DNA from: Terriglobia bacterium
GTDB lineage: Bacteria > Pseudomonadota > Alphaproteobacteria > Acetobacterales > Acetobacteraceae
DNA length: 47,801 nt
Reading direction: 5' to 3'
Assembly: GCA_023511585.1 (NCBI GenBank)
Contig: JAIMBF010000016.1
Location: forward strand, 1-47,801
Below are positions 3,382 through 30,407 of this stretch, piece after piece. Both the position numbers and the translations under genes were made by a program. The notes under the pieces were generated by a model. That model saw only the letters and a program-made list of their open reading frames with translations. It was not told the DNA's origin and searched no databases. Within the stretch, counting starts at the first letter, position 1. Every line of letters starts with the position of its first letter.

Positions 3382-3463
<82 letters not shown>

Positions 3464-7029: not shown

Positions 7030-7033
7030 ATCC

Positions 7034-7049: not shown

Positions 7050-7090
7050 ACCGGGCCTTCTGCCGGATTGGCAAGAGTTGGCAAACGGGT

Positions 7091-9713: not shown

Positions 9714-9723
9714 AGGGAGAGCA

Positions 9724-9913: not shown

Positions 9914-11074
9914 TCAGCTCAACGCCGTTTCCAGGCGCGGTTGCGCAGTTGAGGCTTGCTCATCTCCCTCAAGCCGATGCACGTCTTCCATTTTCCAGTT
10001 CGCGAGCACGGGCTGGCCGATTTCCAACGGATCAACGAAATAGGCGCCATCGGAGACGTTCGCGACAAACTCCTCCAACCCCGGAACATCGACCGTCACT
10101 TTGACGTAAGATCCTTGATATTCGATGGCATGCACCGTACCGCGGACAAAATTCGGTATTGTGCTCGATGTTTCATTTTCAACGGCACGCGAGAGACTGA
10201 CGCGGTCACGGCGGATGGCGAAATAAAGGCGAGAGCCGAGCGCGGGCCGACTCCCATTCGTGCGGATGGCGAAACGCGCGCCTTGGTCGCCTTTGAGCAG
10301 CGTGATGTCATCGGCAACGCTTTCGACGATGCCCCCCAAGACGTTTTGACCACCGATGAACCGTGCCACATAGGGGCTTCGCGGCTGGTCGAAAATCTCA
10401 CGCGGGCCGCTCGCCTGCTCAATTCGGCCTTGATCCATCACCACAAGCATATCCGCGACTGCGATCGCTTCCAGCTGCGTGTGCGTCACGTGGATGAACG
10501 TGATGCCGAACTCGCGCTGGATGCGCCGCAGTTCTCCGCGCATGCGCAGGCGGAGATATTCGTCCAGTGCAGAAAGCGGCTCATCCAGCAAAAGCACGCG
10601 AGGATTGGTAATCAAGGAACGCGCGAGTGCAACGCGCTGTTGCTGGCCTCCCGAAAGCTGTGCTGGCAAGCGTTCGGCAAAGCGCTCCAATCCAACTTTG
10701 CTGAGTATCTCGCGTGCCGCTGCATGCCGCCTATCGCGATCAAGACCGCGCATTTTCAGGGGAAAAGCGACATTGTCCAAAACGCTCAAATGCGGAAAAA
10801 GCGCATAGCTTTGAAACATCATGGCCGTGCCGCGGCGCACAGGCGGCTGACCCACAACGGAACTGCCGCCAATCCGAATATCTCCGGAAGTGGGCGTCTC
10901 GTGCCCTGCGATCATACGCAATATGGTGGTTTTCCCGCAACCACTGGGCCCCAACAGGCAGCAGTAGCTCCCGTGCGGAATAGTCAGGTTGACTCCGGCG
11001 ACGGCGACGGTTTCGCCATAGCGCTTCGTGAGGTTGACAAGCTCGATTTCGCCTGTCTTTCTCTCCGCATTCAT
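9914..11074 (-). CDS. ABC transporter ATPase, polyamine/iron type (PotA-like)
   Basis: A 386-residue import ATPase. The nucleotide-binding domain has Walker A GPSGCGKTT, Q-loop MMFQSYALFP, signature LSGGQQQRV, Walker B VLLLDEPLSALD and switch histidine in FIHVTHTQLEA. A C-terminal TOBE-type region (about residues 250-370) follows, as in PotA and FbpC. It starts directly after the TAA of the upstream permease, so translation is coupled. It completes a four-gene operon: binding protein, two permeases, ATPase. The cargo is unknown; the neighbouring hydantoinase and amidase genes suggest a small nitrogenous compound rather than a polyamine. Confidence 0.92.
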   Translation of the reverse strand: MNAERKTGEIELVNLTKRYGETVAVAGVNLTIPHGSYCCLLGPSGCGKTTILRMIAGHETPTSGDIRIGGSSVVGQPPVRRGTAMMFQSYALFPHLSVLDNVAFPLKMRGLDRDRRHAAAREILSKVGLERFAERLPAQLSGGQQQRVALARSLITNPRVLLLDEPLSALDEYLRLRMRGELRRIQREFGITFIHVTHTQLEAIAVADMLVVMDQGRIEQASGPREIFDQPRSPYVARFIGGQNVLGGIVESVADDITLLKGDQGARFAIRTNGSRPALGSRLYFAIRRDRVSLSRAVENETSSTIPNFVRGTVHAIEYQGSYVKVTVDVPGLEEFVANVSDGAYFVDPLEIGQPVLANWKMEDVHRLEGDEQASTAQPRLETALS

Positions 11075-11935
11075 TTAGTCTTCTCCGATTGTCCGTTCGG
11101 CGGCGCTGATTCGACGCAACCGGCGGCGTTCGATCAGAGCAATTGCGGTTAACGCCGCGGCAATGACGATAAAGGAGACGATCGTCGTCACCGTGCCAAC
11201 GGCGTACAGGGCGGGGGAAGTGACGTTGGTGGTCATCGCCCAAATTTCGAGCGGCAGCGTGTTCGTGCTGCCGGCAGCGAGCAGGGTGCGTGGAAATTCG
11301 TCATAAGAGAGTGTAAACCCGAAAAGTGCCACGCCAATGATTCCTGGCAGTACGATTGGCAGCGTCACTTGTGTCAGCCGCTGCCAATTGCTGGCACCGA
11401 GATCGGTTGCCGCTTCCTCGTATGCGCGGTTGAACCGGCCGAGCACGGCAAACATAATAAGCAGACCGTACGGCAGTGTCCAGGTTAGCTGCGCGCCGAG
11501 CGCCGAAGTGTACCAAGCAGGGGCGATACCAAGCATTTGAAAGCCAATACCGATACCCAGGCTCACAAAGAGCCCGGGCATAATAAGGCTCGCGATCGCC
11601 ATGTAAAACACGAAACTTGCGCCGCGAAAACGCCGGCGAAAGCCGAGCCCCGCCATGACCGACAATAAAACCGTCAGTGCGCCGACAATGCACGCCAGCA
11701 CCAGCGAACGGCGGAACGCGCCGGCAATATCCCCGGTGCGCTCCTGTTCAATAAGTGCTTTGAACCAGTGTAGCGAAAAGCCGTTTATCGGGAATGTCAT
11801 GCCGCCGTTCGGCCCCTGAAATGAAAGCACATAGATAACAATCATCGGGCCATAAAGAAACAGCACGAACAATGCGAAGAATGTCGCCAATGCATAAAAT
11901 GTCCAAGGGCGCGGACCGTGTCGGAGGCTTGCCAT
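11075..11935 (-). CDS. ABC transporter permease (PotC-like)
   Basis: A 286-residue inner-membrane permease with about six hydrophobic segments, the first at roughly residues 13-38. The cytoplasmic EAA loop reads EEAATDLGASNWQRLTQVTLPIVLPGI near residue 180, the typical ATPase-contact motif of PotC/CysW-like permeases. It starts 12 nt after the sister permease stop and abuts the ATPase gene. It forms the channel with the PotB-like subunit. Confidence 0.92.
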   Translation of the reverse strand: MASLRHGPRPWTFYALATFFALFVLFLYGPMIVIYVLSFQGPNGGMTFPINGFSLHWFKALIEQERTGDIAGAFRRSLVLACIVGALTVLLSVMAGLGFRRRFRGASFVFYMAIASLIMPGLFVSLGIGIGFQMLGIAPAWYTSALGAQLTWTLPYGLLIMFAVLGRFNRAYEEAATDLGASNWQRLTQVTLPIVLPGIIGVALFGFTLSYDEFPRTLLAAGSTNTLPLEIWAMTTNVTSPALYAVGTVTTIVSFIVIAAALTAIALIERRRLRRISAAERTIGED

Positions 11936-11947
11936 GTTTCGTGTTCT

Positions 11948-12865
11948 TTAGCCGGTCAATTCTTTACGCACATCAACAAGACGAAGAATTGCAGAGACGA
12001 TAAGCGCCACAATGACCACAAGGATAACGGAACTTGCGGCAGCCGGCGGGTATTGCAGGCTTGCGATCTCGGTGGATAAGGCGGAAACGACGGTCGAACT
12101 CTGCCCTCCGCTCATGACTTTCACAACAAAGAAGTCTCCCATCACCAAGGTGATGACAAAAATCGAGCCGAGCGCAATTCCGGTTTTCGACAGTGGGAGA
12201 ACGATTTCGCGCACAACGCGTAACCGCCCGGCACCTGCGTCCGAAGCGGCCTCCAAGAGGCTCGGATCAATGCGCGCCATAGAGTTGAAAATCGGCACGA
12301 TCATAAAAAGTGTATTAAGGTGCACATAAGCGACGATGACGGCAAAATCCGAGAACAGTAAGAATGATAGGGGCTGGTGAATAAGGCCAACTGCCATCAG
12401 CGCCTGATTAAACACCCCGTGCCGCCCCAGAAACGGAATCCAAGAGATCATCCGAATGATATTCGAGGTCCAGAACGGCACCGTGCAGAGCAAAAACAGC
12501 CCAATCTGCCAAAGCAGACTTCTTACGTGAAAGACGAGAAAATACGCAACCGTAAAGCCGATCACCAGCGTAACGGCCCAGACGATTACCACGTATTTGA
12601 GTGTTGTGAGATACAATCGCAGAGTTAGGCTTGAGGTGAAAAGTTCGATATAATTGTCGAAAATGAACGCCGGGATCATCTGCACGCGTCCATAATCGAA
12701 AAAGCTGACCCCCAGCACGATCAGCATCGGCACGCCGAAGAACAGCAGTAGAATCAATGCCAGCGGCCCGACCTCAAGCCATGATATAATTTGTGGCTGA
12801 AGTTTGGCGAGCCGACGCCAACCAGACATCGCGTCGGGTGCCGCCGTGTCTAAACTTTGATTCAC
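11948..12865 (-). CDS. ABC transporter permease (PotB-like)
   Basis: A 305-residue inner-membrane permease. A soluble N-terminus of about 30 residues precedes the first membrane segment (LALILLLFFGVPMLIVLGV). The EAA-type loop is LEAASDAGAGRLRVVREIVLPLSKTGI near residues 200-225. It lies 7 nt after the binding-protein gene and 12 nt before the PotC-like gene. The order binding protein, PotB-like, PotC-like, PotA-like is usual for alphaproteobacterial polyamine-type importers. Confidence 0.92.
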   Translation of the reverse strand: MNQSLDTAAPDAMSGWRRLAKLQPQIISWLEVGPLALILLLFFGVPMLIVLGVSFFDYGRVQMIPAFIFDNYIELFTSSLTLRLYLTTLKYVVIVWAVTLVIGFTVAYFLVFHVRSLLWQIGLFLLCTVPFWTSNIIRMISWIPFLGRHGVFNQALMAVGLIHQPLSFLLFSDFAVIVAYVHLNTLFMIVPIFNSMARIDPSLLEAASDAGAGRLRVVREIVLPLSKTGIALGSIFVITLVMGDFFVVKVMSGGQSSTVVSALSTEIASLQYPPAAASSVILVVIVALIVSAILRLVDVRKELTG

Positions 12866-12872
12866 GTTATGC

Positions 12873-14180
12873 TCAGGCAGATACGAATTCGTTCCAGCGC
12901 CGCACCATATAGCGATCTTCGTCCATCAATGTGTTCCAGCAGGCCACGTTACCCATGCGCTGCCAGAAGCTGCCGCCATCGCGCACGCGGCCGGCTTTTT
13001 CCATGAGATTGCCATAGGGGTCTTTGATATCGTGTTGCGCCGGTTTGCCTTCGTACCAGTAGCCCCACTCATCATCGGTGAGGAATTTCCTGGCGGTTTC
13101 CGGTACCGAGCTGTAGTAACCCTGTCGCGCGATAAAGGCCCCCTGCCAGCCGGAGTTATACCAATTGATATATTCAAAAGCGGCATCGAGCTTAAGTCCG
13201 CTGAGATGCGCCATCGGCGCGATGCAGCTGGCCCAAGCACGATAACCCTCCTTCAGGGGTACGTAGTAGCAGCTCATCCCGCGCGATTTCACTGCCGTCA
13301 CCGCGGGCGACCACATGGACTGAATGACTACTTCGCCCGAGGCCATCAGGTTCACGGATTCATCAAACGTGCTCCAAAAGGCGCGGAACTGCCCCGCCTT
13401 CTTCGCCGCAGTGAGGATGGCGATGGTTTTGTCAATTTCCTCCCGGGTCATATTTCCTTTATCGCCGTATTTGAGGTCACCACGCGATTCGATCGCCATA
13501 GCGGCATCCATAATGCCGATCGAGGGGACATCGACAATGGCCGTCCGCCCCTTGAACTCGGGGTTGAGCAGTTCATACCAATGCTCAATCGGGCGGTGAA
13601 TGAGATCGGGACGGATGCCGAGCGTATCGGCATTAAACACGGTGGGCACGCCGCTCAAAAGATCCGTCGGGTGTTTCGCGAAAGTCTTGGCGTCACGCGA
13701 TTCCAGATACTGCACTTTGTAGGGAAGGGTACCCTGCCGGGAGACTTTGCGGCCGTCGGGGTACTCGCCTTTGGTAAAGATCGGAACCGTTTTATCCCAC
13801 CATTTGTATTTGCTGAGCGGGATTGGTTGAATGATGTTGCGGCCGATCAAGTAGTTCTGAAAATAATACTCGATATCGGCGATATCGATAGTCCGAGGCT
13901 CATTAATCAAGCGGTTGAGCAATGATACCTCGTCGGCGGTTTGCATCTCCACCTGAAAACCCAGGTCCTTGGTCGCCTGCTTGGCAATGTCAATGATTGC
14001 CGAATACGAGCCGCCCACCTGAATAAGTTTGATATTCTTGAGGTTCTGCGCCCAGATCGTCGGAAACCCCTGCACAACGCCGGAACCGAGTGCGAGCCCG
14101 GTGCCTGCGGCGGCGGCCTTCATCACGTTGCGCCGCGTTGTTCCCTTGCTATTTGTTTCGGTTTTTGCGTTCATTGTCAT
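12873..14180 (-). CDS. ABC transporter substrate-binding protein (PotD-like, Tat-exported)
   Basis: A 435-residue periplasmic binding protein of the extracellular solute-binding family 1/PotD type. The N-terminus has a twin-arginine signal (TTRRNVMKAAAAGTGLALG, arginines at 16-17) and a likely cleavage site after IWAQ. Export of a folded protein is therefore expected. The rest reads like the PotD family: IDIADIEYYFQNY, then a C-terminal FEYINWYNSGWQG segment near residue 340. It is first in the operon, divergent from the dihydropyrimidinase gene. Substrate is not decidable from sequence. Confidence 0.9.
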   Translation of the reverse strand: MTMNAKTETNSKGTTRRNVMKAAAAGTGLALGSGVVQGFPTIWAQNLKNIKLIQVGGSYSAIIDIAKQATKDLGFQVEMQTADEVSLLNRLINEPRTIDIADIEYYFQNYLIGRNIIQPIPLSKYKWWDKTVPIFTKGEYPDGRKVSRQGTLPYKVQYLESRDAKTFAKHPTDLLSGVPTVFNADTLGIRPDLIHRPIEHWYELLNPEFKGRTAIVDVPSIGIMDAAMAIESRGDLKYGDKGNMTREEIDKTIAILTAAKKAGQFRAFWSTFDESVNLMASGEVVIQSMWSPAVTAVKSRGMSCYYVPLKEGYRAWASCIAPMAHLSGLKLDAAFEYINWYNSGWQGAFIARQGYYSSVPETARKFLTDDEWGYWYEGKPAQHDIKDPYGNLMEKAGRVRDGGSFWQRMGNVACWNTLMDEDRYMVRRWNEFVSA

Positions 14181-14499: not shown

Positions 14500-15909
14500 A
14501 TGCCAACAACCCTGATCAAAAACGGGCGTATTGTAACGGCCGTCGATGACTACCGGGCCGATATCCTGATCAAAGATGGTCGCATCCATACGATTGGGCG
14601 CGATCTCAGCGTCGGAGCGGAGGTGGCGGTCCATGATGCCGCCGGGCTTTTGGTGCTACCGGGCGGGGTGGACGTCCACACGCACCTTGATTGGGAATTC
14701 GGCCCCTCGAGAACCGTGGATACCTTCGCAACCGGCACAAAGGCCGCGGCATTCGGCGGCACCACAACCATCGTGGACTTTTGCAACCAGAGCAAGGGCG
14801 AAAGCCCGCTCAAAGGCCTTGAGGATTGGCATCGCCGCCGGGCGTCTGCTGCGGTCGATGTCGGCGCGCATATGATTTTGTTGGACGTCAATGCGCAAAC
14901 CCTGGCCGACATGAAAATCCTCATCGAACGGGAAGGCGTGAGCAGTTTCAAATTGTTCATGGCGTATCCGGGCGTTTTGATGGTCGATGACGGAGCGCTC
15001 TTTCAAGCAATGCGCGTCGCTGGGGCAAACGGCGCCATGATCTGCGTGCATGCCGAAAACGGCGCGGTGATCCAGGTCTTGGTGCAGGAAGCGGTGGCGG
15101 CAGGCCATACCTCGCCGAAATACCATATGCTTACCCGGCCGTCCCTGATGGAGGGCGAGGCAACGCATCGCGCGATTCGGCTTGCGGAGCTTGCGGATAC
15201 ACCGCTCTATATCGTGCATCTCTCTGCAGCCGAGGCGTTGGCGGCGGTGACCGAGGCGCGCGATCGGGGCATTCACGTGCACGCCGAGACCTGCCCGCAT
15301 TACCTCTTTTTGACGGACAAAGAGTACGACCGCCCCGAATTTGAAGGAGCGAAGTTCGTCATGACCCCACCGCTTCGCGATGCGCATCATCAGCATGCGC
15401 TTTGGCGCGGGCTGAAAACCAACGATTTGCAGGTGATCTCGACGGATCACTGCCCGTTCTGCTTCAACGAACAGCCTTACGGGCTCAAATACTCAAAGCA
15501 GCTTGGACGTGAAGATTTCAGCAAAATCCCGAACGGGGCGCCGGGAATCGAAACGCGTCTGCCGCTCGTCTATGACGGCGGCGTTGCCAAGGGGCGTCTC
15601 TCGCTCAACCGCTTTGTGGACATTACGGCGACAACACCGGCCAAACTCTTCGGTCTTTTTCCACGCAAGGGCACGATTGCAGTGGGATCGGATGCGGATC
15701 TCGTGCTGTTCGACCCGAACGAACGTTGGACAATCCGCGCGGCCGAGCATCACAGTCGCGTGGATTACAGCCTGTTCGAAGGGCGCGAGGTGACCGGGCG
15801 CGTGAAGAAAGTCTTTCTGCGCGGAGACTTGATCGTGGATGGGGATCGGTGGCTTGGCCGCGATGGCCAGGGGGAGTTTCTGCACCGACCGAGCTCCGGC
15901 CGGCTTTAA
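14500..15909 (+). CDS. hydA: Dihydropyrimidinase / D-hydantoinase
   Basis: A 469-residue amidohydrolase-superfamily enzyme that opens dihydropyrimidine or hydantoin rings to N-carbamoyl amino acids. Metal ligands fit: H60 and H62 in DVHTHLDWEF, Lys151 in FKLFMAYPG (the carboxylated lysine), later histidines in VHAENG and VHLSAAEAL, and Asp in STDHCPF. A longer frame reaches 14392, but the ATG at 14500 gives the family start MPTTLIKNGRIV and follows AAGGGGGGGA. It is divergent from the Pot-like importer and convergent with the cobW/imidase operon. No carbamoylase is seen in the window. Confidence 0.93.
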   Translation: MPTTLIKNGRIVTAVDDYRADILIKDGRIHTIGRDLSVGAEVAVHDAAGLLVLPGGVDVHTHLDWEFGPSRTVDTFATGTKAAAFGGTTTIVDFCNQSKGESPLKGLEDWHRRRASAAVDVGAHMILLDVNAQTLADMKILIEREGVSSFKLFMAYPGVLMVDDGALFQAMRVAGANGAMICVHAENGAVIQVLVQEAVAAGHTSPKYHMLTRPSLMEGEATHRAIRLAELADTPLYIVHLSAAEALAAVTEARDRGIHVHAETCPHYLFLTDKEYDRPEFEGAKFVMTPPLRDAHHQHALWRGLKTNDLQVISTDHCPFCFNEQPYGLKYSKQLGREDFSKIPNGAPGIETRLPLVYDGGVAKGRLSLNRFVDITATTPAKLFGLFPRKGTIAVGSDADLVLFDPNERWTIRAAEHHSRVDYSLFEGREVTGRVKKVFLRGDLIVDGDRWLGRDGQGEFLHRPSSGRL

Positions 15910-15918
15910 GTTTCGTCT

Positions 15919-15950
15919 CCGGTAGCTTAGGCGTTGTCTTAGGCTACCGG
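15919..15950. terminator. Bidirectional hairpin between convergent hydA and cobW
   Basis: CCGGTAGC (15919-15926) and GCTACCGG (15943-15950) are perfect inverted arms around a 16-base loop. It starts nine bases after the hydA stop and overlaps the last codons of the cobW gene, so it can serve both strands. Confidence 0.65.
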
Positions 15951-17006
15951 CTCCGCCCGGCGGGCGCGAACGCCGAGAAAGGTTGCCAGCGAACGCTCGA
16001 TCTCGCGACGGTTCAGCCCTTGCACGATGAAGACCAGGCGCGATCGCCGATCCGCATCGGGCCAGGACCTCAGATGCACGGGCGGATGCACCAAATGCTG
16101 CACGCCATGCACCGCAACCGGAGTTTCCTGACCCGCGATCTGCAAAATGCCCTTCACACGCAGGATTTTCTCACCGTGCCGATTGAGCACCATCGTCAGC
16201 CAGACGCCGAAAGAAATCCAGTCCAGCTGTGTATCGAAGGTGAGGGCAAAGGCTTCAATATCCTTCCCGTGCCGGTTGGGATCGGAGGCCCCATGAGCAC
16301 TGTGGCAATGGTCTTCCTCCGCTTCCCGTAGCTCCGCGGCAAACCAGATTTGCGCGGCTTTGCTTTTGCCGGCAAGATCGTAGGCATCTCCGGCCAAGAG
16401 CAGTTCGGCATTGAGAGCATCCTCAGCCGCGCGTAGCAGCAGGGCGGTCGGGTTGATGGCACGAATACGCTCCGCCAGACGAGCCGCTTCCGCAGGATCG
16501 GCGATATCGGTTTTGGTCAGCACCACCCGATCCGCCGCCGCCAATTGCTTCACGCTTTCGCTGTAGCGCTCAAGGTGCCGGGCGCCGTTGACGGCATCGA
16601 TCGTGGTGATCACGTTGCTCATGCGGAAGTGATGCTTGATCACCGGCTCCGCATGGATGGTTGTCAAGACCGGGAACGGATCTGCAAGCCCCGTGCTTTC
16701 GATGGCGAGCCTGCGGAAGGGGGGCACGGCGCCACGTTCCCGTCTTGAATGCAAATCCCTGATCGCTTCGGCAAGTTCGCCGCGGATGGTGCAGCAAAGA
16801 CAGCCCGATTGCAGCAAGACCGTGTGTTCGTCGATTCGTTCCAGGAGATGATGATCCAGGCCCACTTCGCCAAATTCGTTGATCAGCACCGCAGTATCGG
16901 CAAGGTGGGGATCAACGAGCAGGCGGTTGAGCAGGGTTGTCTTTCCGGACCCGAGAAAACCCGTAATCAGGTTTACCGGTGTGAATTGTGGGATTTGCTG
17001 GCTCAT
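15939..17006 (-). CDS. CobW / COG0523 family GTPase, probable metal chaperone
   Basis: A 355-residue G3E-family GTPase. The P-loop GFLGSGKTT is at 16-24, the metal-site CxCC motif (C69-L-C71-C72) follows, and ESTGLADP and TKTD guanine-recognition segments are present. A histidine-rich stretch (EEDHCHSAHG..NRHG, about 230-250) precedes the CobW C-terminal domain (ending ERSLATFLGVRA). Family members deliver zinc or another metal to client enzymes using GTP. Its start overlaps the stop of the small CxxC protein by ATGA. The neighbouring imidase-like and hydantoinase enzymes need metal and are natural client candidates. Confidence 0.9.
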   Translation of the reverse strand: MSQQIPQFTPVNLITGFLGSGKTTLLNRLLVDPHLADTAVLINEFGEVGLDHHLLERIDEHTVLLQSGCLCCTIRGELAEAIRDLHSRRERGAVPPFRRLAIESTGLADPFPVLTTIHAEPVIKHHFRMSNVITTIDAVNGARHLERYSESVKQLAAADRVVLTKTDIADPAEAARLAERIRAINPTALLLRAAEDALNAELLLAGDAYDLAGKSKAAQIWFAAELREAEEDHCHSAHGASDPNRHGKDIEAFALTFDTQLDWISFGVWLTMVLNRHGEKILRVKGILQIAGQETPVAVHGVQHLVHPPVHLRSWPDADRRSRLVFIVQGLNRREIERSLATFLGVRARRAEPVA

Positions 17007-17329
17007 GCCCCGCTTTCAAGCCAATTCAAAAGCGCGGGATCCAGCGGGTCACAAAGCCGGCCGGTCAGCTGTTCCGCCACTGACCAGAGGTGGGAGAGAT
17101 TATCCACAAGCTCGCTTTTTCCCGTCGCCGTGGAGAGAATGTAGGTCGTGCCCTGCCAATCCGCCAAGTGCAGACGATAAAACGAGAGGATGCGGTTTGC
17201 CGCCTGCACCCGCCGCATCCGCTCGCCGCGTCGTGCTGCAGCACTGGTGGCGGGCGAACCGAGACCAGGACGAGAGGCCGCCTCTGTCCAATGGTCCGAT
17301 CCGCCCAAGACGCCACACAATGCGCACAT
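17003..17329 (-). CDS. Small conserved-looking protein with N-terminal CxxC, next to CobW
   Basis: A 108-residue protein I do not recognise. It begins MCALCGVLGGSDHW, with a C2-x-x-C5 pair and a nearby histidine that could bind metal. The middle (about 35-60) is basic and then reads ILSFYRLHLADWQG; the C-terminus reads LSHLWSVAEQLTGRLCDPLDPALLNWL. The frame overlaps cobW by ATGA and starts 15 nt after the imidase-like gene, so it is translated within this operon. A link to metal delivery by CobW is an inference from position and the cysteines. Confidence 0.8.
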   Translation of the reverse strand: MCALCGVLGGSDHWTEAASRPGLGSPATSAAARRGERMRRVQAANRILSFYRLHLADWQGTTYILSTATGKSELVDNLSHLWSVAEQLTGRLCDPLDPALLNWLESGA

Positions 17330-17344
17330 CGGAAAACGCCGTGC

Positions 17345-18229
17345 TTAGCTCTTTTTGCGAGGGAAACGCCGCGCGAAATCGTCCGCCATTTCGTTCATGG
17401 TCACAAACTTCACACCGGGATGACGGATCATGTGATGATAAAGACGCTCCAGCATCATCAGCACGTGCGGACGGCCCGAGACATCGGGGTGGATGGTCAT
17501 CGGGAAGACGGCATAGTCATATTCGCGATAGACCCAGTCGAATTGATCGCGCCACATTGCCTCGATGTCGTAGGGGCTCACGAAACCGTGGCTGTTGGGC
17601 GCTTTCTTGATAAACATCATCGGCGGCAAATCATCCAGATGCCAGCTTGCCGGAATTTCGATCAAATCGGTTTCCGTGCCGCGCTTCAACGGTACCATCC
17701 ATTCGCTTGGCTTCTTGGAATAGTCGATTTTGGTCCAACTATCGCCCACGCGGACGTAATAGGGCTGAAAGTCGTGGTGCATCAGCGAGTGGTCGTATTT
17801 GATGCCTTTTTTCAGCAGCAACTCGTTGGTTACCCGCGAGAATTCCCACCAAGGCGCCACATAGCCGGTCGGCCGCCGCCCGGCAAGCTTGGTGACAAGC
17901 TCGATGCACTTGTCCAGAACTTCCTCTTCCTGTTCCGGGGTCATCGCGATCGGGTTCTCGTGGCTGTAGCCGTGAATGCCGATCTCATGCCCCGCAGCGG
18001 CCACGGCAGCCATTTGCTCGGGAAAGGTCTCGATCGAGTGGCCGGGGATAAACCAGGTTGTCTTGATCCCGAACCGTTCGAAGAGTTTCAGAAGCCGCAG
18101 CGAGCCGACTTCGCCCGCAAACATGCCGCGCGAGATGTCGTCGGGGCTGTCTTCTCCGCCGTATGAGCCGAGCCAGCCTGCGACCGCATCCACATCGACG
18201 CCGAATCCGCAGAGAATTTCCTTAGGCAT
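17345..18229 (-). CDS. Polysaccharide-deacetylase-fold hydrolase, imidase/allantoinase-like
   Basis: A 294-residue NodB-fold protein. It keeps the metal triad: Asp14 in [10 protein letters not shown] and His86/His90 in [10 protein letters not shown]. No signal peptide is present, so it acts in the cytoplasm, unlike most sugar deacetylases. Length and the [18 protein letters not shown] start resemble, as I recall, the 293-residue cyclic imide hydrolase of Pseudomonas putida YZ-26 and, more distantly, PuuE allantoinase. A C-N ring-opening activity on a cyclic imide or ureide is therefore more likely than sugar deacetylation. It sits between asparaginase-like and CobW genes in one operon; hydantoinase lies next door. 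Confidence 0.85.
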
Positions 18230-18264
18230 TGTTCACTCCTGTCTTCTGACCCAATCCTTATTAT

Positions 18265-19242
18265 TTACCCGCCAAGTTTGGCTATGTGCTCGGCGATCAT
18301 AGCGTGTGAAGCTCCGGCGCCGAGCAGCACCGAGAGCAGCACCCGGGCTTTCACTCCGGTGAGATCGCCGGCGAAGATCGCGCCGGCCGCTGCGAGATCC
18401 TTGCCGCCGCCATTCCCGTAAATCGGCTCCACGCGCCCCTGCGGGCAGCGTGTGGTGATGACCACCGGCAGTCCCGCGGCAATAGCCTCCCGTACGCCTT
18501 GAAGAACCGAGAGCGTTGCGTTGCCGCGGCCGAACGCCTCGAGCACAAGGCCCTTGGCTCCGCTTTGTATTGCCGTGCGAAGGAAACGTGCATCCGACCC
18601 CACGACCAATTTGATGAGATCCACAAAGGGCTCGATGCGCTGGGTTCGGATGGTGCTGCGCCGCACGGGGCGGCGGTGCAGCACAATGCGTTCGCCGTCG
18701 ATCTCGCCCAGCATCCCGTGGCCCATCGAACTAAAGGCGCCGACGCGGTAAGCGTGTGTCTTGGTTGCGTCGCGCGCGGCGTGAAATTCTTGGTCGAAGA
18801 GGATGACGGTGCCGAGCCCCTCGAGCCCCGAAGCCGCAAGCCGAATGGCATCGCCGAGATTGCGCGGCCCGTCGGTGTCCGGCTCTTCCGCATAGCGCTG
18901 CGCCCCCGTGAACACCACCGGCTTTTCCGAAGGCACCACAAGGTCGGCCAGAAACGCGCTTTCTTCCATAGTGTCGGTACCATGCGTCACCACGGCGCCG
19001 GCCACCTCCGGCCTTGCCAGATGCTCTGCGATCCGCTGGGCGAGACGAAAGGCGATGTCCAGGTCGAAGTTGAAACTGCCGAGGTTACAGAACTCATCCA
19101 CTTCAATGGAGAGCTCCGACGGCCGCTCGTGCAAGGTTTGCAAGAGTTCGTTCCCGCTGGCGCTGGCGCTGACCCATCCGTGGGTGGGATCAAAGCGTGA
19201 AGCAATCGTTCCACCGGTGGTGATGAGAACAACGCGCTTCAT
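18265..19242 (-). CDS. Asparaginase-family amidohydrolase
   Basis: A 325-residue enzyme of the bacterial L-asparaginase family. The two signature blocks are present: ITTGGTIAS with nucleophile Thr12, and VVTHGTDTMEES with Thr89-Asp90. The following KPVVFTGAQR..DGPRNLGDAI matches the family core. It lacks a signal peptide, so it is cytoplasmic. It hydrolyses a side-chain amide to acid plus ammonia. In this operon it may act on half-amides such as those released by an imidase, because succinamate is asparagine without its amino group. Gene starts 2 nt after the regulator stop and is 35 nt before the imidase-like gene. Confidence 0.9.
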   Translation of the reverse strand: MKRVVLITTGGTIASRFDPTHGWVSASASGNELLQTLHERPSELSIEVDEFCNLGSFNFDLDIAFRLAQRIAEHLARPEVAGAVVTHGTDTMEESAFLADLVVPSEKPVVFTGAQRYAEEPDTDGPRNLGDAIRLAASGLEGLGTVILFDQEFHAARDATKTHAYRVGAFSSMGHGMLGEIDGERIVLHRRPVRRSTIRTQRIEPFVDLIKLVVGSDARFLRTAIQSGAKGLVLEAFGRGNATLSVLQGVREAIAAGLPVVITTRCPQGRVEPIYGNGGGKDLAAAGAIFAGDLTGVKARVLLSVLLGAGASHAMIAEHIAKLGG

Positions 19243-19244
19243 CT

Positions 19245-20084
19245 CTACACTCGCTTTTCCGCAAGCGTAACAGCCGACGCCGCGTGCCCGAGCATCGCGC
19301 CCCGGGGTGTTTCCACAGCAGGCGGGGGTGTGTCGCTCAGTGCGATGCCGACACGTCCTGCCGCGCGCGTGATGTGGAGGCGCATATAGTATTCAGCCCC
19401 GTCCGGATCATGCTGGGTGATTGCTTGAACGAGTTTTTCGTGCTCGTCCACAGTTTCCCATACCCGCTCGTGGCGAGCAACCGGCACACGCTGGCTTTCC
19501 AAGAAAATCGCGCGGTAGGTCTCGTGGAGATCCGCAAAAATGCGGTTCTTGGAAAGTTTCATAATACGGTGATGGAGCTCGAAATCGGCCTGTGAAGAAG
19601 CGACAAAATCAAGCTGCCGTGTTGCTTCTTTGTGCTCTTGAACGATCCTTTGCAATTCCGCCACTTCGTCATCGGTGGCAGCCATGGTTGCCAGGCGGGC
19701 AGCATAGCTTTCGTTCAAAAGCCGGAACTGATAAACTTCCTGCAAAGTGTAACGGCTTGCGAAACGCCAGATGGGCGCCGGGACCAGCGCCGCTGTTTGC
19801 CTCGCCTTTTCTGAACTTGCATTGTTGGCCGAGGCTTCTTCGACCACAAACGTGCCGCGATGTGGCTCGATCCGCACAATGCCGAGGGTGGCGAGAATGG
19901 AAAGCGCTTCCCTCAGCGATGCGCGGCTTACCGAAAGCTGCTGGGCGAGTTGCCGTTCGGAAGGCAGGCGTTGACCGCGCCCGAACGTCCCGTTGAGAAT
20001 CATCGCCTGAATACGGCTGACCGTAGATTGTGAGATAGGTGCTCGCAAGCTCTGGCTCGCTTCCCCCTGATGTGGCCTGACCAT
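19245..20084 (-). CDS. GntR-family transcriptional regulator, FadR (FCD) subgroup
   Basis: A 279-residue regulator. The N-terminal winged helix (about 25-95) has the GntR core RLPSERQLAQQLSVSRASLREALSILATLGI..PHRGTFVV. The C-terminal FCD ligand domain follows, with the metal-binding histidine pattern in DFELHHRIM and the later HEKLVQAI and RLHIT segments. A TTG-started extension to 20189 exists, but its start overlaps the candidate promoter; the ATG at 20084 has AGGA eight bases upstream and is chosen. It leads the amidase/imidase/cobW operon and is divergent from a peptide-type transporter. A TGGT-N3-ACCA operator lies in the shared region. Confidence 0.92.
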   Translation of the reverse strand: MVRPHQGEASQSLRAPISQSTVSRIQAMILNGTFGRGQRLPSERQLAQQLSVSRASLREALSILATLGIVRIEPHRGTFVVEEASANNASSEKARQTAALVPAPIWRFASRYTLQEVYQFRLLNESYAARLATMAATDDEVAELQRIVQEHKEATRQLDFVASSQADFELHHRIMKLSKNRIFADLHETYRAIFLESQRVPVARHERVWETVDEHEKLVQAITQHDPDGAEYYMRLHITRAAGRVGIALSDTPPPAVETPRGAMLGHAASAVTLAEKRV

Positions 20085-20160
20085 TTTGTCTATCCTGGCG
20101 CTTGGCGCGGCCCACAGTGGCGCCGAGCCGTCACCGAAGAGCGTTGCATGTTCCTTCGAG

Positions 20161-20232
20161 ATATGCCTTAAAATTTCGGCGCTCGTCAATACTTACTTAC
20201 TATTGACCGGAACCACGCTCTCAGGCTATGGC
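20161..20232. promoter_or_regulatory. Back-to-back promoters sharing a 23-bp dyad
   Basis: GTCAATA (20185-20191) and TATTGAC (20201-20207) form a perfect 7-bp inverted repeat around nine bases. Each arm supplies a -35 box: TTGACC for the plus strand (20203-20208), with a weak TATGGC -10 at 20227, and TTGACG for the minus strand (20189-20184), with CATATC/GCATAT near 20165. So the dyad may be two divergent promoters, an operator, or both. Confidence 0.5.
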
Positions 20233-20243
20233 TACGGCGATAA

Positions 20244-20254
20244 TGGTCTGACCA
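20244..20254. promoter_or_regulatory. Candidate FadR/GntR operator TGGT-N3-ACCA
   Basis: TGGTCTGACCA is a perfect palindrome of the form TGGT-N3-ACCA, the consensus recognised by FadR-subgroup regulators such as FadR and PdhR. It lies just downstream of the predicted plus-strand promoter and 53 bases before the transporter start, a position suited to repression. A second half-site-like CAGACCA occurs at 20278-20284. Confidence 0.6.
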
Positions 20255-20306: not shown

Positions 20307-21968
20307 ATGAGCGACGATAGGGGCAAACCCGGGTATGCCGGTCGACGCCGGTTTTTAAAGGGAGTAGCAGCGGCCGGGGCGGCAACAATTCTGCCTGATA
20401 CGATCGGTTCGCGAGAAACTTTTGCACAAACGCCGTCGAATACGTTGGTAATTGCTGCTCCGGCGACGCCGCAAGGGCTGGATATTGAATTTGACGTCAG
20501 CCTTGGCTCCATCGATACCCTGGGCGCACTTTATGAATACATGCTCGCGTACGAGAAAATCCCTGATCCACAAAATCCGGAAGTTTTGCGCGAAGATACC
20601 GCCGTACATCCCGATAAAAAATACGGCCTCGCTTTGCGTGGAAGGCTCGCGACCGATTGGGAAATCTCCAACGATGGTCGGAAAGCAACATTTAAGCTTC
20701 GCGAGGGCGTGCGCAGCAACTGGGGCAATCTGTTTTCGGCTGAAGATGTGAAATGGACTTGGGATCGAAAGTTCAATCTCAAAGGCCAGGGTATTTTTCA
20801 AACGTCCGTTCTTGGTTTGAAGCACCCGGACCAGGTGAAGATCGAAGGGCCGATGGTAGTTTCGTTTAATCTTGAAAAGCCAAATCCGATTCTTCTGAAA
20901 CAGCAATGCAATCTTGCTAATCCGATCTATGACAGCAAAAAAATCAAAGAAGTCGGCGGTACGGACGATCCTTGGGGAGTAAAGTTCTTACAAAACGAGA
21001 GCGCGGGCTTTGGCCCGTATCGGCTGCAACAAATTATCCGTGGGCAGATGGCGGTATTTCAGGCGCGCGATGATTATTGGGATGCCAAACCGTATATGAA
21101 AACGGTAATCATGCGCGAGGTGCCCACTTCCGCGGCGCGGCTTTCGTTGCTGCAAGGGGGGGCAGTAGACATCGCGCAGTTTCTACAGCCGCGGGAATAC
21201 ATGACGCTTCGCGGCAATCCGAACGTGACGTTTGATGCGGTGAACGCATCTTACATTATCTGGTTGGAGCTGAACGCAAAGATCAAACCCTTCGATAACG
21301 TTCTGGTCCGCCAGGCGATGAACTACGCCCTGCCGCAGGAAGAGATCATCCGTACGATCTATTACGGTCTGGCTGATCCCGAAAAGGCACCGATGCCGTA
21401 CATCTACCCGATGGCAAACTCGAGTTACTATCGTTATGGCTATAACCTTGAACAGGCAAAGAGGCTGTTGGCACAAGCCGGTTATCCGAACGGTTTTAAG
21501 ACGACTTTGAGCTATAACGCGGGAGACCCGACCCAAGAACCCATCGCCCTTCTCTATCAGACCGCGCTTCGGCAGATCGGTGTTGATATCGAGCTTGAGA
21601 AACTGCCGGCAGGTGTATTTTACGAGAATGTTACCAAGCGTCAGAAACCGATCATCTTCTATCTCGATTCACCGTGGACTCCGGACCCGGGTTATTCGAT
21701 GTTTCTTTATTTCCACAGCAAGAGTTATGTGGACTACAGCAACTATTACAACCCAAAGGTCAATCAGATGATTGAACAAGGGTTGGAGACCTTGGACGAT
21801 AGTCTTCGGAAGACAATTTACGACGAGGTTCAAAAGATTATTATGGAGGAGGCGCCGTGGGGCTTTATTGCGTATCCAAAATATGCGCTTGCGCGCAAGA
21901 CAAATTTGAAGGGCTTTACTTATTATACCTCAAATAATCTTCGGTTTCAGGATTTTAGGCGAGCGTGA
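20307..21968 (+). CDS. ABC transporter substrate-binding protein, peptide type (family 5), Tat-exported
   Basis: A 553-residue periplasmic binding protein of the DppA/OppA type. The twin-arginine signal RRRFLKG is at 13-19, followed by a hydrophobic run and a likely cut after TFAQ. The family body is clear: LRGRLATDWEISNDGRKATFKLREGVRSNWG, and the late DDSLRKTIYDEVQKIIMEEAPWGFI. The ATG follows AGAAGGAGAG. It is the first gene of a binding protein / permease / permease / ATPase / ATPase / dehydrogenase operon. Family members carry peptides but also opines, nickel and other amides; cargo is unknown. Base composition appears lower in GC than the housekeeping genes. Confidence 0.93.
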   Translation: MSDDRGKPGYAGRRRFLKGVAAAGAATILPDTIGSRETFAQTPSNTLVIAAPATPQGLDIEFDVSLGSIDTLGALYEYMLAYEKIPDPQNPEVLREDTAVHPDKKYGLALRGRLATDWEISNDGRKATFKLREGVRSNWGNLFSAEDVKWTWDRKFNLKGQGIFQTSVLGLKHPDQVKIEGPMVVSFNLEKPNPILLKQQCNLANPIYDSKKIKEVGGTDDPWGVKFLQNESAGFGPYRLQQIIRGQMAVFQARDDYWDAKPYMKTVIMREVPTSAARLSLLQGGAVDIAQFLQPREYMTLRGNPNVTFDAVNASYIIWLELNAKIKPFDNVLVRQAMNYALPQEEIIRTIYYGLADPEKAPMPYIYPMANSSYYRYGYNLEQAKRLLAQAGYPNGFKTTLSYNAGDPTQEPIALLYQTALRQIGVDIELEKLPAGVFYENVTKRQKPIIFYLDSPWTPDPGYSMFLYFHSKSYVDYSNYYNPKVNQMIEQGLETLDDSLRKTIYDEVQKIIMEEAPWGFIAYPKYALARKTNLKGFTYYTSNNLRFQDFRRA

Positions 21969-22060: not shown

Positions 22061-23026
22061 GTGCCGAAGATTCTTGACTTTCTGAAACTTGTTGTCCGGA
22101 TTGCTCAAGTTCGACCGCGCTTCTTATTGGGCTACGCCATTGTCCTTGTCGCAATCCTGGCCGGGCTCATGGCGCCGCTTTTTTCAGCCTATTCACCGGT
22201 TACGGCTGATTCGAGCCACTTCCTGCAAGCGCCGAGCAGGGCACACTGGTTTGGCACGGATGCGGTAGGCATGGATATCTTTACCCGCACAATCTATGCC
22301 CCTCGTATCGACCTTACAATTGCGGTTACCGGCACGCTACTTTCCGCATTGGTTGGCTCATTTATCGGTGCTTTTGTCGGCTATTTCAGTGCGGGACGCG
22401 GCGTTCGCGTGCATCTTTCCTACGCTGTGATGCGCGCGGCCGATGTGCTGCAGGCTTTCCCGGTATTCGTTTTCGCAATCGCTTTGGTGGCGAGCTTCGG
22501 CCAAAGCATCGAGACGGTCGTGCTGGCCATTGCCTTCGTTAATGCGCCGATCTATCTGCGCTTGATGCGTGCGCAAGTAATGGCGATCCGCGAGATGCGC
22601 TATGTTGAAGCCTCTCTGGTCGCAGGCCTTTCGGATTTTAAGACGATTTTGCGCCACATAATCCCGAACGCCATGACCCCGGTGCTGGCACAGCTTTCGA
22701 TCAATGTCGGCTGGGCAATTCTTCTTACCGCAGGCTTAAGTTTTGTCGGCGCCGGCGTGCGCGCGCCGACCCCAGAGTGGGGCAGCATGATCGCGATGGG
22801 CTTTCAAAATATGGTGACGGGGCAGTGGTGGCCGTCGGTGTTCCCTGGTCTTGCGCTTGCGGTAACGGTGTTTGGGTTCTCTTTAGTTGGGCTCAGCATC
22901 GAGGTATTTGCCGATCCGATAAAACGCCGCGCACTTGTCCGTGATCTTGAAATCGCTCGGCGGCGTGCGCCGCCGGCTGCTATGTCCGGCCCGGAAGGGG
23001 TACTTACTGCCGGGGAAGCGCCGTGA
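22061..23026 (+). CDS. ABC transporter permease (DppC-like)
   Basis: A 321-residue inner-membrane permease starting at GTG 22061 after AAGGAGGAGGGG. The DppC features are present: an N-terminal membrane segment, the periplasmic HWFGTDAVGMDIFTRTIYAPRIDL motif near 65-85, and the cytoplasmic EASLVAGLSDFKTILRHIIPNAMTPVL loop near 185-210. The PPAAMSGPEG tail is not conserved. It overlaps the next permease by four bases. Usually DppB precedes DppC; here the order is reversed. Confidence 0.93.
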   Translation: MPKILDFLKLVVRIAQVRPRFLLGYAIVLVAILAGLMAPLFSAYSPVTADSSHFLQAPSRAHWFGTDAVGMDIFTRTIYAPRIDLTIAVTGTLLSALVGSFIGAFVGYFSAGRGVRVHLSYAVMRAADVLQAFPVFVFAIALVASFGQSIETVVLAIAFVNAPIYLRLMRAQVMAIREMRYVEASLVAGLSDFKTILRHIIPNAMTPVLAQLSINVGWAILLTAGLSFVGAGVRAPTPEWGSMIAMGFQNMVTGQWWPSVFPGLALAVTVFGFSLVGLSIEVFADPIKRRALVRDLEIARRRAPPAAMSGPEGVLTAGEAP

Positions 23027-24033
23027 GGATAATTCTCTATATAGGGCGCCGGCTGCTGTTCATTGTCCCGCAGCTTCTCGGCATCGTTTTAGTAAGCTTC
23101 CTTTTGGTGAAATCGATCCCAGGCGACCCGGCAGTGTTGATGCTTGGGCCAACGGCAACGCCGGATGCCATTGCATCGTTGCACAGAAAACTCGGTCTGG
23201 ATCATTCATTGCCTGTGCAGTTTTGGATTTATTTGAAGAATTTGGCTCACGGAGATCTCGGCACATCGTGGCAAACAACGCGTCCAGTTCTTGAGGATTT
23301 GATTCAGCGTTTTCCCGCCACCCTCGAACTTGTATCACTCGGCCTGTTGCTCGCCGTTTTGATCGGTGTTCCGCTCGGTCTTGCTTCAGCTTTCAACGAA
23401 AGGGGTTGGCTTGCTGGAATTGCGAATTTCTACGGCCTAGGCGCAGGATCGCTGCCGGATTTTTGGCTTGCTTTGGTGCTTATTTTTATTTTCTATACCA
23501 CCCTACAATGGGTGCCAGCTCCGCTCGGGCGCATCGACCTTACAATCGTGCCGCCGCCTCCGGTAACCGGAGTGCTTACCGTGGACGCGCTCCTCGCCGG
23601 GGACTGGCAAGCATTCCGGTCGGCCGCCGGGCATCTCGTTTTACCTGCTCTCACCTTGGGGCTAATTAATGCGGGGCCAATTCTAAAAATGACGCAGTCA
23701 TCCATGGAGAAAATGCTGCAATCCGACTTTAGTCGTTACGAAGTGTTATGCGGCATGCCGCGCCGGTTAGTGGTGCGGCACGCGCTCCGTAACGCTTTGC
23801 CTTCCGTGGTGACGATTATCAGCGTGCTTTACGGATTTTTGATTGGCGGGGCGGTGCTTGTTGAGATCGTATTTAGCTGGGGCGGCGCTGGCCAATACGC
23901 CGTGCAAGGCGTCTTGAATTCCGATTTTTATCCGGTACTGGGATTTGTGTTGTTTTCGGCCATCTTCTCATTGTTCGTGTATCTTGTGGTTGATCTGATC
24001 TACTTTGCAATCGATCCACGCATCAGTCATTGA
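23023..24033 (+). CDS. ABC transporter permease (DppB-like)
   Basis: A 336-residue permease starting at GTG, overlapping the upstream gene by GTGA. DppB hallmarks: RRLLFIVPQLLGIVLVSFLLVKSIPGDPA at the N-terminus, a LGLDHSLPVQFWIYLKNLAHGDLGTSW periplasmic region, and the EAA-like loop FSRYEVLCGMPRRLVVRHALRNALPSVVTI. In the loop, EVLCGMPR replaces the commoner VRTARAKG, a mild deviation. It pairs with the DppC-like protein to form the pore. Confidence 0.92.
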   Translation: MRIILYIGRRLLFIVPQLLGIVLVSFLLVKSIPGDPAVLMLGPTATPDAIASLHRKLGLDHSLPVQFWIYLKNLAHGDLGTSWQTTRPVLEDLIQRFPATLELVSLGLLLAVLIGVPLGLASAFNERGWLAGIANFYGLGAGSLPDFWLALVLIFIFYTTLQWVPAPLGRIDLTIVPPPPVTGVLTVDALLAGDWQAFRSAAGHLVLPALTLGLINAGPILKMTQSSMEKMLQSDFSRYEVLCGMPRRLVVRHALRNALPSVVTIISVLYGFLIGGAVLVEIVFSWGGAGQYAVQGVLNSDFYPVLGFVLFSAIFSLFVYLVVDLIYFAIDPRISH

Positions 24034-25061
24034 AACGCCCGATGCCTGCTTTCGCGCAATCAATTGGACTCCCTCCTCAGAACTCGGCGGCTGTCGCGCT
24101 CTTGGTCGAACGTTTGAGAGTGGAATTCCCAGTACTGCGTGGCAAGCCGAAAGTAGCAATCCGAGACTTGGATATTTCCATTCGTCCGGGTGAAATTCTT
24201 GGGCTTGTTGGTGAGTCAGGGGCCGGCAAAACGACCTTAGCCCGCGCGATCCTTAATCTGCCGCCTGCACCGGGGCGTATTACCGCCGGTGTGGTACAAT
24301 TCGATGGCGTCGATCTGCTTCGTCTATCCGAGGGCGAGCTTCAGCGCATTCGCGGCCGCGATATCTCGATGGTGGTTCCGAACCCGCGGGGCGAACTGAA
24401 TCCTTTGGTGCCTGTCGGCGTGCAACTCGCGTCCATTGCCCAGGTGCACCTTGACAAGGACAGGCATTCTGCCCGTGCCATGGCGCTAGAAATGCTGCAG
24501 GCAGTTCAGATCCCGGATCCCGAACGACGCATGCGGGCCTATCCTCATGAGCTGTCGGGTGGTATGGCTCAGCGCGTTGTCATCGCCATTGCGCTCATGT
24601 GTTCGCCGCGCTTCATCATTTCGGACGACGCGACAAGCGGCCTTGACGTGACCGTTCAGGCGCAGATTCTGGAACTTCTTCGCCATCTCGTGCGCAAGCA
24701 AAGCAGTGCTATGCTGTTTATCACCCGTGATATTGGCATAACCGCGCATTTCTGCGATCGAGTTGCTGTGATTTATCGGGGCGAAATCATGGAAATTGCG
24801 CCGCGCGAAAGTTTCTTTTTGGCGCCCCGCCATCCTTACACAATGCTGCTGTTGGCGGCATTCCTGCACAACCCGCAACTCCGCCGGGCATGGACGCCCC
24901 CGGATGCATCGGTACGTGCTAACGTCGATACGGAGATCGGCTGTGCTTATACCGACCGTTGTCCGCGAGCGCGTAAAATTTGTCAAACTACCAAGCCGCT
25001 GCTGGCTGAACGGATCTCTGGCCATTTCGTGCGTTGCCATTTCCCGCTGGAACGAGAATGA
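24030..25061 (+). CDS. ABC transporter ATPase (DppD-like) with degenerate catalytic residues
   Basis: A 343-residue ATPase. Start is TTG 24030, overlapping the permease stop, or possibly ATG 24042. Walker A GESGAGKTT (61-69) and signature LSGGM (175-179) are normal. Three catalytic positions are altered: the Q-loop reads MVVPNP (Pro117 for Gln), Walker B reads ISDDATSGLD (Asp200 for Glu), and the switch reads ITRDIG (Arg233 for His). The C-terminus holds the Opp-type cysteine motif CAYTDRCPRARKIC. It likely binds ATP but hydrolyses it poorly, working with the canonical OppF-like partner encoded next. Confidence 0.92.
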   Translation: MKRPMPAFAQSIGLPPQNSAAVALLVERLRVEFPVLRGKPKVAIRDLDISIRPGEILGLVGESGAGKTTLARAILNLPPAPGRITAGVVQFDGVDLLRLSEGELQRIRGRDISMVVPNPRGELNPLVPVGVQLASIAQVHLDKDRHSARAMALEMLQAVQIPDPERRMRAYPHELSGGMAQRVVIAIALMCSPRFIISDDATSGLDVTVQAQILELLRHLVRKQSSAMLFITRDIGITAHFCDRVAVIYRGEIMEIAPRESFFLAPRHPYTMLLLAAFLHNPQLRRAWTPPDASVRANVDTEIGCAYTDRCPRARKICQTTKPLLAERISGHFVRCHFPLERE

Positions 25062-26131: not shown

Positions 26132-26870
26132 GCTCATCGGGAAGAAGGCGCTTGTCACAGGCGGCGGGCGGGGGATAGGACGGGCGATCGCACTCGCCTT
26201 CGCGGGTGAGGGAGCCGAGGTTGCGGTTTTGGATTTGCGTCCTGAGTTGGCCGAGAAGGTGGCCAGGGAGATTGCCGATCTTGGCGCGAGATCGTTTTCC
26301 GTTGTTGCTAATGTGAGTGACGAAGCCGCGGTAAAGTCTGCCGTCGCTGCGACAGAAGCGGCACTCGGGCAGATCGACATCCTCGTAAACAATGCCGGTA
26401 TCGATACAACTTCCCGCCTCGTCGATATGCCAACCGAAATGTGGGATGAAATGATCCGCGTAAATCTGCGGAGCGTTTTCTTGTGCACGCGCGCGGTATT
26501 GCCAGGGATGCTGCAGCGCAAGTGGGGCCGCATTATCAATATCAGCTCCCAACTTGCGCATAAGGGGGCTGCGGAGATGGCCCATTACGCCGCAGCCAAG
26601 GCAGGCGTGCTCGGGTTTACGCGTTCGCTCGCTTATGAAGTGGCGCGCAGCGGCATCACCGTAAACGCGATCTGTCCGGGACCGATCGATACCGAATTAT
26701 TCCGCAACATTCCCGAGGGCTGGCGGGAGAACAAGCTTGCCGAATTACCGATCGGCCGAGCCGGGACTGTGGATGAAATTGCCCCAACTGCCGTGCTGCT
26801 CGCTTCCGATGAGGGGTCTTATTATCTAGGCGCATCGCTTAATCCTAACGGCGGCGATGTCATGATTTGA
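26124..26870 (+). CDS. Short-chain dehydrogenase/reductase (FabG-like)
   Basis: A 248-residue classical SDR. The nucleotide motif TGGGRGIG is at 12-19, NNAG at 89-92, and the catalytic Ser141/142, Tyr155 and Lys159 are in place. Asp37 after the second beta strand (VAVLDLR) suggests preference for NAD(H). The start overlaps the ATPase gene by eight bases, so it is the last gene of the transporter operon. Oxidation of an imported hydroxy or keto compound fits; substrate is not readable. It resembles FabG but is outside any fatty-acid cluster. Confidence 0.93.
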   Translation: MDRLIGKKALVTGGGRGIGRAIALAFAGEGAEVAVLDLRPELAEKVAREIADLGARSFSVVANVSDEAAVKSAVAATEAALGQIDILVNNAGIDTTSRLVDMPTEMWDEMIRVNLRSVFLCTRAVLPGMLQRKWGRIINISSQLAHKGAAEMAHYAAAKAGVLGFTRSLAYEVARSGITVNAICPGPIDTELFRNIPEGWRENKLAELPIGRAGTVDEIAPTAVLLASDEGSYYLGASLNPNGGDVMI

Positions 26871-30379: not shown

Positions 30380-30407
30380 CCTGCACAACAGAGGAAAGGA
30401 GACGCAT

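Follow-up and report, generated by a model that had tools for sequence, protein, structure and literature searches.

A candidate cyclic-imide operon with a recurrent CxxC-CobW gene pair beside a NodB-fold enzyme in an Acetobacteraceae genome

The DNA analysed here is one entire contig (JAIMBF010000016.1, 47,801 nucleotides, hereafter the window) of a 3.14-Mb draft genome in 201 contigs (GCA_023511585.1) placed in the Acetobacteraceae, and our subject is a minus-strand operon that encodes a NodB-fold enzyme together with a small CxxC protein and a CobW GTPase. The operon runs from 20189 to 15939 and consists of five genes. They encode a FadR-type regulator with GntR and FCD domains (19245..20189, identified by family search; its TTG start is uncertain), a cytoplasmic asparaginase-fold amidase with asparaginase N and C domains, proposed to be a half-amidase (18265..19242), the NodB-fold enzyme, a proposed cyclic imide hydrolase of the HP0310/HxnM family (17345..18229, from Polysacc_deac_1 and the alignment with HP0310), the CxxC protein of 108 amino acids (17003..17329), and a CobW/COG0523 GTPase proposed as a metal insertase (15939..17006). 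The intergenic spacings are 2, 35, 15 and -4 bp, the last being a 4-bp overlap in which CobW starts inside the stop of CxxC. A dihydropyrimidinase gene converges on the operon with a stop-to-stop distance of 30 bp. The positions and families of these genes had been given in the initial annotation of the window, and both the coordinates and our family searches agree with it.

The CxxC protein belongs to an undescribed family. Neither Pfam nor NCBIfam gave a family match at E<=0.001, a search of PDB sequences was empty at E<=10, and a search for fold relatives gave 950 PDB matches at E<=10 with 0 at E<=0.001. Where its relatives are annotated in RefSeq, they are named 'hypothetical protein'. The structure prediction (60 rows; pLDDT 77.8, pTM 0.65) proposes a flexible N-terminal tail, MCxLCG..HW, with residues 1-27 below 50, followed by an ordered domain of about residues 30-108 that consists of a helix, three strands and two helices. 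To evaluate the motif, we used proteins from motif-independent searches with the whole protein or a profile (63 loci scanned, 58 with a match), excluding one N-terminal fragment and one frame-shifted duplicate row of L185. All 57 of the resulting proteins have C-x-x-C at residues 2-5, 55 as MCxxC and 2 as VCxxC. The GTPase has the cobW and CobW_C domains, a GxxxxGKT Walker A motif and the sequence CLCC.

The strongest new result is that the NodB, CxxC and CobW genes are a near-obligate cassette in Proteobacteria. Among 385 alphaproteobacterial genomes, NodB (E<=1e-60) was found in 22, CxxC (E<=1e-8) in 23 and both in 21, a co-occurrence with P 2.5e-31 when kinship is left uncorrected, involving 11 family codes. 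The exceptions are G289, with a 40% NodB match, G366, in which CxxC and CobW lie beside a 31% NodB, and G509, which has CxxC and CobW but no NodB on the contig concerned. In the class sample, 18 of the 20 NodB loci inspected have CxxC and CobW; L089 has CxxC without a CobW match and L090 (NodB about 40%) has neither. The phylum sample contains NodB in 10 of 398 genomes including the source, and the other nine (9/9) all have CxxC, and CobW is close by in every one of the stretches. In the family sample, CxxC matches were found in 20 of 200 genomes, or 18 once the two weakest were dropped (G038 and G087, E 1.5e-4 and 6.4e-4, which the profile of A1 failed to recover). The stretches L027-L044 contain CobW in 18/18 cases, as fragments in L041, and NodB in 15/18.

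A set of 80 named loci was also retrieved by the N-terminal pattern of CxxC; CxxC is present in them by construction, so they do not bear on the motif. The named and numbered locus sets overlap (e.g. L031/L110, L036/L166 and L071/L092), and the counts in the named loci were made by tblastn, a rough GC-based gene caller having missed CxxC in many loci. CobW was found in 79 of the 80, in 78 on the same strand within 500 bp, and the eightieth locus ends 23 bp past CxxC. NodB was found in 73, in 65 on the same strand within 500 bp; in Halomonas and Marinobacterium it is divergent and a few kb from CxxC. The initial annotation had claimed a tight operon that included CobW. The three genes do co-occur elsewhere, being linked in Alpha-, Beta- and Gammaproteobacteria beyond chance with CobW as a near-constant partner. 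That CxxC is as constant as CobW is a point absent from that annotation.

From gene order we infer that CxxC and CobW work as a pair to insert metal into NodB-fold hydrolases, because no neighbour of CxxC is as constant as CobW, because NodB stays while half-amidases, transporters and regulators vary, and because the pair also accompanies a second NodB subfamily. This subfamily occurs in L157 (8943-11469), L170 (9007-11457) and L189 (around 8661-10132), where CxxC and CobW lie beside a NodB protein of 31% identity whose best PDB match is 3rxz instead of HP0310. The cassettes of L157 and L170 have genes of the Rid family and for BenC-like reductases in their neighbourhood.

COG0523 proteins are common in zinc-scarcity regulons, and a few CxxC-CobW pairs have no NodB gene nearby (L123, L151 and L190), as would be seen if the pair served another client, such as the asparaginase neighbour, the hydantoinase or a short-chain dehydrogenase/reductase (SDR), or belonged to a general zinc-scarcity set with NodB as a hitch-hiker. 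We consider this unlikely, since NodB is kept while amidase, asparaginase, hydantoinase and transporters vary, the pair also tracks a different NodB subfamily, and in the window the pair is part of an operon headed by a catabolic regulator. Just as unlikely, in our estimation, is a CxxC protein that handles no metal and serves the imidase as a subunit, a stabiliser or a redox switch. NodB does occur in 21 of the 23 CxxC genomes, and the ordered C-terminal domain of the predicted structure has no metal motif, but the most constant neighbour of CxxC is the GTPase (79/80 loci, usually overlapping or less than 500 bp away), and the CxxC tail, itself constant, is of a metal-binding type.

The proposed client of the metal-insertion pair, the NodB-fold enzyme, has HP0310 of H. 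pylori (3qbu/4ly4) as its top PDB sequence match, at 506 bits over 293 residues without a gap, and the runner-up reaches only 111 bits. It retains the metal ligands D14, H86 and H90 as well as the base D12 and H247 around the water, and all of the site-closing gate residues Y23, W127, W128, W196 and L201; the 161-185 arm of HP0310 is also aligned without a gap. Residue 1 pairs with residue 1 of HP0310, so there is no N-terminal extension, and no export signal was seen on reading the protein. In the parts of PMC3084791 available to us, which name the site-lining and gating residues, HP0310 is a cytoplasmic tetramer without a signal peptide, its active site is closed and a small substrate is argued; polyamine importers are noted near its homologues. 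According to the available text of PMC9304392, HxnM opens hydroxylated glutarimide in Aspergillus, as judged by mutants and metabolites, and shares 64.2% identity with the Pseudomonas putida imidase AAY98498; its nearest known structure is HP0310. The P. putida imidase also serves as the reference enzyme in PMC8478523, likewise seen in part. These comparisons support the placement of the window enzyme in the HP0310/HxnM/P. putida imidase family and not among secreted deacetylases, as the initial annotation had proposed, and imide hydrolysis is predicted for it.

The names in the databases point in another direction. The Pfam domain is Polysacc_deac_1, the RefSeq label of the relatives is 'polysaccharide deacetylase', and PMC3688963, as far as available, reports activity of HP0310 towards pNP-acetate as well as chitin, chitosan and acetylated xylan, calling the protein an acetylesterase and peptidoglycan deacetylase. 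The NodB protein may then be a deacetylase or acetyl-esterase acting on peptidoglycan, chitin or small acetylated molecules, in an operon that salvages acetylated amides. We rate this slightly below the two preceding alternatives. Like cytoplasmic HP0310, the window protein has no N-terminal extension; the closed HP0310 was inactive on GlcNAc, chitotriose, N-acetyl polyamines and N-acetyl dipeptides, and on allantoin (PMC3084791). Every curated NCBIfam deacetylase model stays far under its cut-off, with a best score of 58.6 bits against 276.2, and the genes around it are for amidases, SDRs and solute transport, with no wall genes among them. The accessible parts of the two HP0310 papers mention tests of no imide besides allantoin (PMC3084791, PMC3688963).

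For the window, an imidase paired with a half-amidase had been suggested. The asparaginase-fold protein has T12, T89-D90 and K161 at the positions of the asparaginase catalytic residues, which we take to be the catalytic Thr, Thr-Asp and Lys. It stays below the curated asparaginase cut-offs (TIGR00520, 181 against 314.3 bits; TIGR00519, 154.4 against 260.5 bits), and no second PF00710 gene was found in the source genome. At E<=1e-60 it has matches in 3 of the 385 alphaproteobacterial genomes, namely the source genome, G543, where a relative of 64% identity lies immediately before NodB, and G479, where the identity is 40% and which is not in the NodB genome set. Within 100 Acetobacteraceae genomes, 3 of 60 PF00710 matches (G000, G085 and G058) are no more than 2 kb from a CxxC gene, when about 0.02 would be expected by a rough estimate from about 4 Mb per genome and 11 of the 100 genomes with the cassette.

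In the named loci, an amidase-signature gene was found in 18/80, an asparaginase in 11/80 and both in 0/80, so that a half-amidase gene of either type is by NodB in 29/80; for loci that reach 5 kb or more beyond CxxC in both directions, the count is 19/48. The closest NodB by identity (92%, L128) is preceded by an amidase where the window has the asparaginase. In a tree of 96 NodB proteins, the minimum number of changes is 9 for the asparaginase and 13 for the amidase; these values come from a quick method that left 34 of the 92 branches open, 14 rows of L180-L193 had no label, labels for nine plasmid loci were assigned manually from their annotation, and the values are inflated by contig ends counted as 'none'. 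We read the asparaginase and amidase loci as the apparent replacement of one half-amidase by another. The asparaginase also adjoins NodB in Rhodococcus erythropolis, in the order asparaginase-NodB-MFS-SDR-SDR-OYE, and in the haloarchaeon Haladaptatus the two genes are adjacent and divergent. The suggested pairing of imidase and half-amidase is thus upheld in that one type or the other recurs by NodB.

It was also proposed that hydantoin is part of the theme. The dihydropyrimidinase (14500..15909, plus strand) is of the D-hydantoinase type, with 591.7 bits for TIGR02033 against a cut-off of 393.25, and is loosely associated with the operon. Its relatives occur in just 4 of the 80 named loci (76, 60, 59 and 42% identity): the 76% relative is right behind CobW in L124, and those of 59-60% are about 5.6 kb off in L141 and L147. 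A relative is also present in L181. A carbamoylase above the cut-off (TIGR01879, 441 bits) is encoded on contig C65 and none in or beside the operon, and an NCS1 permease of the cytosine/uracil/allantoin type is in 5/80 named loci. A pathway for hydantoin or dihydropyrimidines built around the hydantoinase, with NodB as a second ureidase, would fit its score, its relatives, the carbamoylase and the permeases by some cassettes, but it is the least probable of the alternatives, as the hydantoinase is such a rare companion, the carbamoylase lies on another contig and allantoin is not a substrate of HP0310 in the part of PMC3084791 available. The rarity of the hydantoinase (4/80) led us to reject hydantoin as the main reading, and the overall outcome for the initial annotation is that its imidase and half-amidase core is well backed by comparison while its hydantoin part is weak.

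The genes around the operon recur with it, which the initial annotation had not pointed out. The regulator gene is divergent from a Dpp/Opp-type ABC transporter, 117 bp from start to start as listed, given the uncertain TTG. This transporter comprises an SBP_bac_5 binding protein found by family search (20307..21968, plus strand) and four genes for permeases and ATPases (22061..26131, plus strand; names from reading the translations), and a Dpp-type transporter is likewise near the cassette of Lichenicoccus roseus. An SDR gene follows (26124..26870, plus strand), and nothing else in the source genome matches as well the SDR that other bacteria encode next to the imidase. For example, in the Klebsiella plasmid operon, with the order amidase-NodB-MFS-SDR-SDR-CxxC-CobW, the SDR has its best match in the source genome at 26139-26864 (49%, 230 bits), and the next match, elsewhere, has 149 bits. 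Next is a sugar-type (Rbs-like) ABC transporter (26896..31625, plus strand; named from the translations), with copies of 63-81% identity by the cassettes of Acetobacteraceae-type loci L038, L161, L165 and L169, the last three of which also carry an asparaginase. On the other side, four minus-strand genes encode a Pot-type ABC transporter (9914..14180, by family search), whose PotD and PotB share 82% identity with the proteins encoded downstream of the L138 cassette and 47-57% with those in Burkholderiales loci; the polyamine importers noted near HP0310 homologues (PMC3084791, available in part) fit this transporter. The SDR and the ABC transporters in 9914-31625 probably belong to the locus, and from their recurrence by cassettes the unit is likely to span about 9.9-31.6 kb. 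Judged from the translations, this region is flanked by housekeeping genes that read as trigger factor/ClpP/ClpX/Lon and, on the opposite side, by GrpE/DnaK/DnaJ/EF-G.

Some related loci were noted in passing. In L197 (Rhizobium johnstonii 3841 pRL12, 1988-14866), a complete operon contains a transporter, two SDRs, NodB (RL_RS33635), CxxC (RL_RS33630), CobW (RL_RS33625), an amidase and a cyclase-family protein; the strain is a tractable one. In the marine-type alphaproteobacterial loci L129-L132, L134, L136, L137 and L139, the cassette is followed by HyuA/HyuB (5-oxoprolinase-type) genes and by a protein of 199 amino acids from an unnamed family (cluster 12) with no Pfam match. In Leisingera (L203, 16420-18870), NodB and an amidase are paired a second time, together with a urea carboxylase-associated gene, at a distance of about 7 kb from the first cassette. 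The cassettes of L115, L124 and L125 are on contigs labelled Solirubrobacterales, Rokuibacteriota and Verrucomicrobiota, and their NodB identity of 78-91% suggests that these contigs are mis-binned or mislabelled.

Taken together, we consider it reasonably probable, as far as sequence comparison can tell, that the operon serves the catabolism of cyclic imides, with its own metal-loading pair and with deamidation of the half-amide after ring opening. What the sequences show is the content and order of the genes, their conservation and the retained residues; the substrate, the order of the reactions and the transfer of metal we infer as follows. An imide, or a hydroxylated lactam or imide first oxidised by the SDR, would enter through the transporters encoded nearby. 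In the cytoplasm, the NodB-fold zinc enzyme would add water across one ring C-N bond to give a half-amide, from which the asparaginase-fold enzyme would take off the remaining amide nitrogen as ammonia, leaving a dicarboxylate. The CobW GTPase, directed by the CxxC protein, would load the metal site formed by D14, H86 and H90 of the NodB enzyme.

Besides the activities of HP0310 on acetylated polymers, several observations weigh against this proposal. No amidase or asparaginase of the types searched was found in 51 of the 80 named loci. Amidases are also widespread, with 9 in the source genome and at least one in each of 100 relatives, so the presence of an amidase alone is less telling. In 7 of the 80 CxxC loci there is no NodB on the stretch searched; 4-5 of these are contig ends, which does not simply account for L151 and L123. 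G509 has the order amidase-CxxC-CobW with no NodB on its 10.5-kb contig. The Rhodococcus and Haladaptatus stretches that were read have no CxxC or CobW by NodB and so the pair is not universally needed, which suggests that it is a proteobacterial addition and not a chemical necessity. Finally, no oxidase or reductase that would make the imide was found close by, the best match to the old yellow enzyme (OYE) being 32% on contig C142.

When compared with known systems, the window enzyme shares the cytoplasmic NodB-fold family of the P. putida YZ-26 imidase (EC 3.5.2.16) and HxnM of A. nidulans, to which it is linked via HP0310. HxnM works with the amidase HxnN and the SDR HxnW, and the window likewise has an amidase and an SDR; the available parts of PMC9304392 and PMC8478523 mention no CxxC or CobW partner, whereas the window has both. 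The fungal lower nicotinate set consists of imidase, amidase, SDR and OYE-type reductase. The amidase of the window is instead of the asparaginase type, and a full bacterial copy of the set in the source genome is not supported, for want of a close OYE. Gene content close to that set was observed in L200 (Rhodococcus erythropolis R138 pLRE138, 7989-18521), which contains LacI, asparaginase, NodB, MFS, two SDRs, OYE and an FAD-dependent oxidoreductase, with no CxxC or CobW in the stretch.

HP0310/HpPgdA agrees with the window enzyme in the full-length ungapped match, the metal ligands, the gate and the start of the chain, but has been published as a peptidoglycan deacetylase, unlike the imidase role proposed here. 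The allantoinase PuuE shares the NodB fold and a small cyclic substrate; an allantoinase identity was rejected, as TIGR03212 gives only 72.9 bits against a cut-off of 424.6 and HP0310 is inactive on allantoin. For the GTPase, the comparators are the COG0523/CobW metallochaperones such as YjiA (1nij) and ZNG1. The Walker motif, CxCC and CobW_C are common to these GTPases and the window protein, and the near-fixed pairing with one enzyme fold and a small CxxC protein sets the latter apart from these comparators. A link between CobW and an imidase, or such a pairing, was not found in the open-access literature that was searched.

HP0310-type relatives carry the annotation polysaccharide deacetylase, and the H. 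pylori enzyme is discussed as peptidoglycan-modifying with its substrate disputed in the available parts of PMC3084791 and PMC3688963. The pairing of imidase and amidase, kept across phyla, is a concrete alternative to the deacetylase annotation. If CxxC and CobW load the imidase, the client of a COG0523 GTPase could be named from gene order alone, a small adapter outside Pfam and NCBIfam would go with it, and how such GTPases find their clients could be tested directly in rhizobia, which are easy to grow. A bolder and more tentative proposal, to which we give somewhat less than an even chance, is that the CxxC protein represents the first of a class of adapters by which a COG0523 GTPase is matched to one enzyme fold. 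Its Cys pair would carry the metal, its ordered domain would recognise NodB-fold hydrolases and CobW would drive the hand-over, and the operons, in which half-amidases, SDRs and transporters are interchangeable, would form a widespread, hitherto misnamed route by which bacteria handle small cyclic imides.

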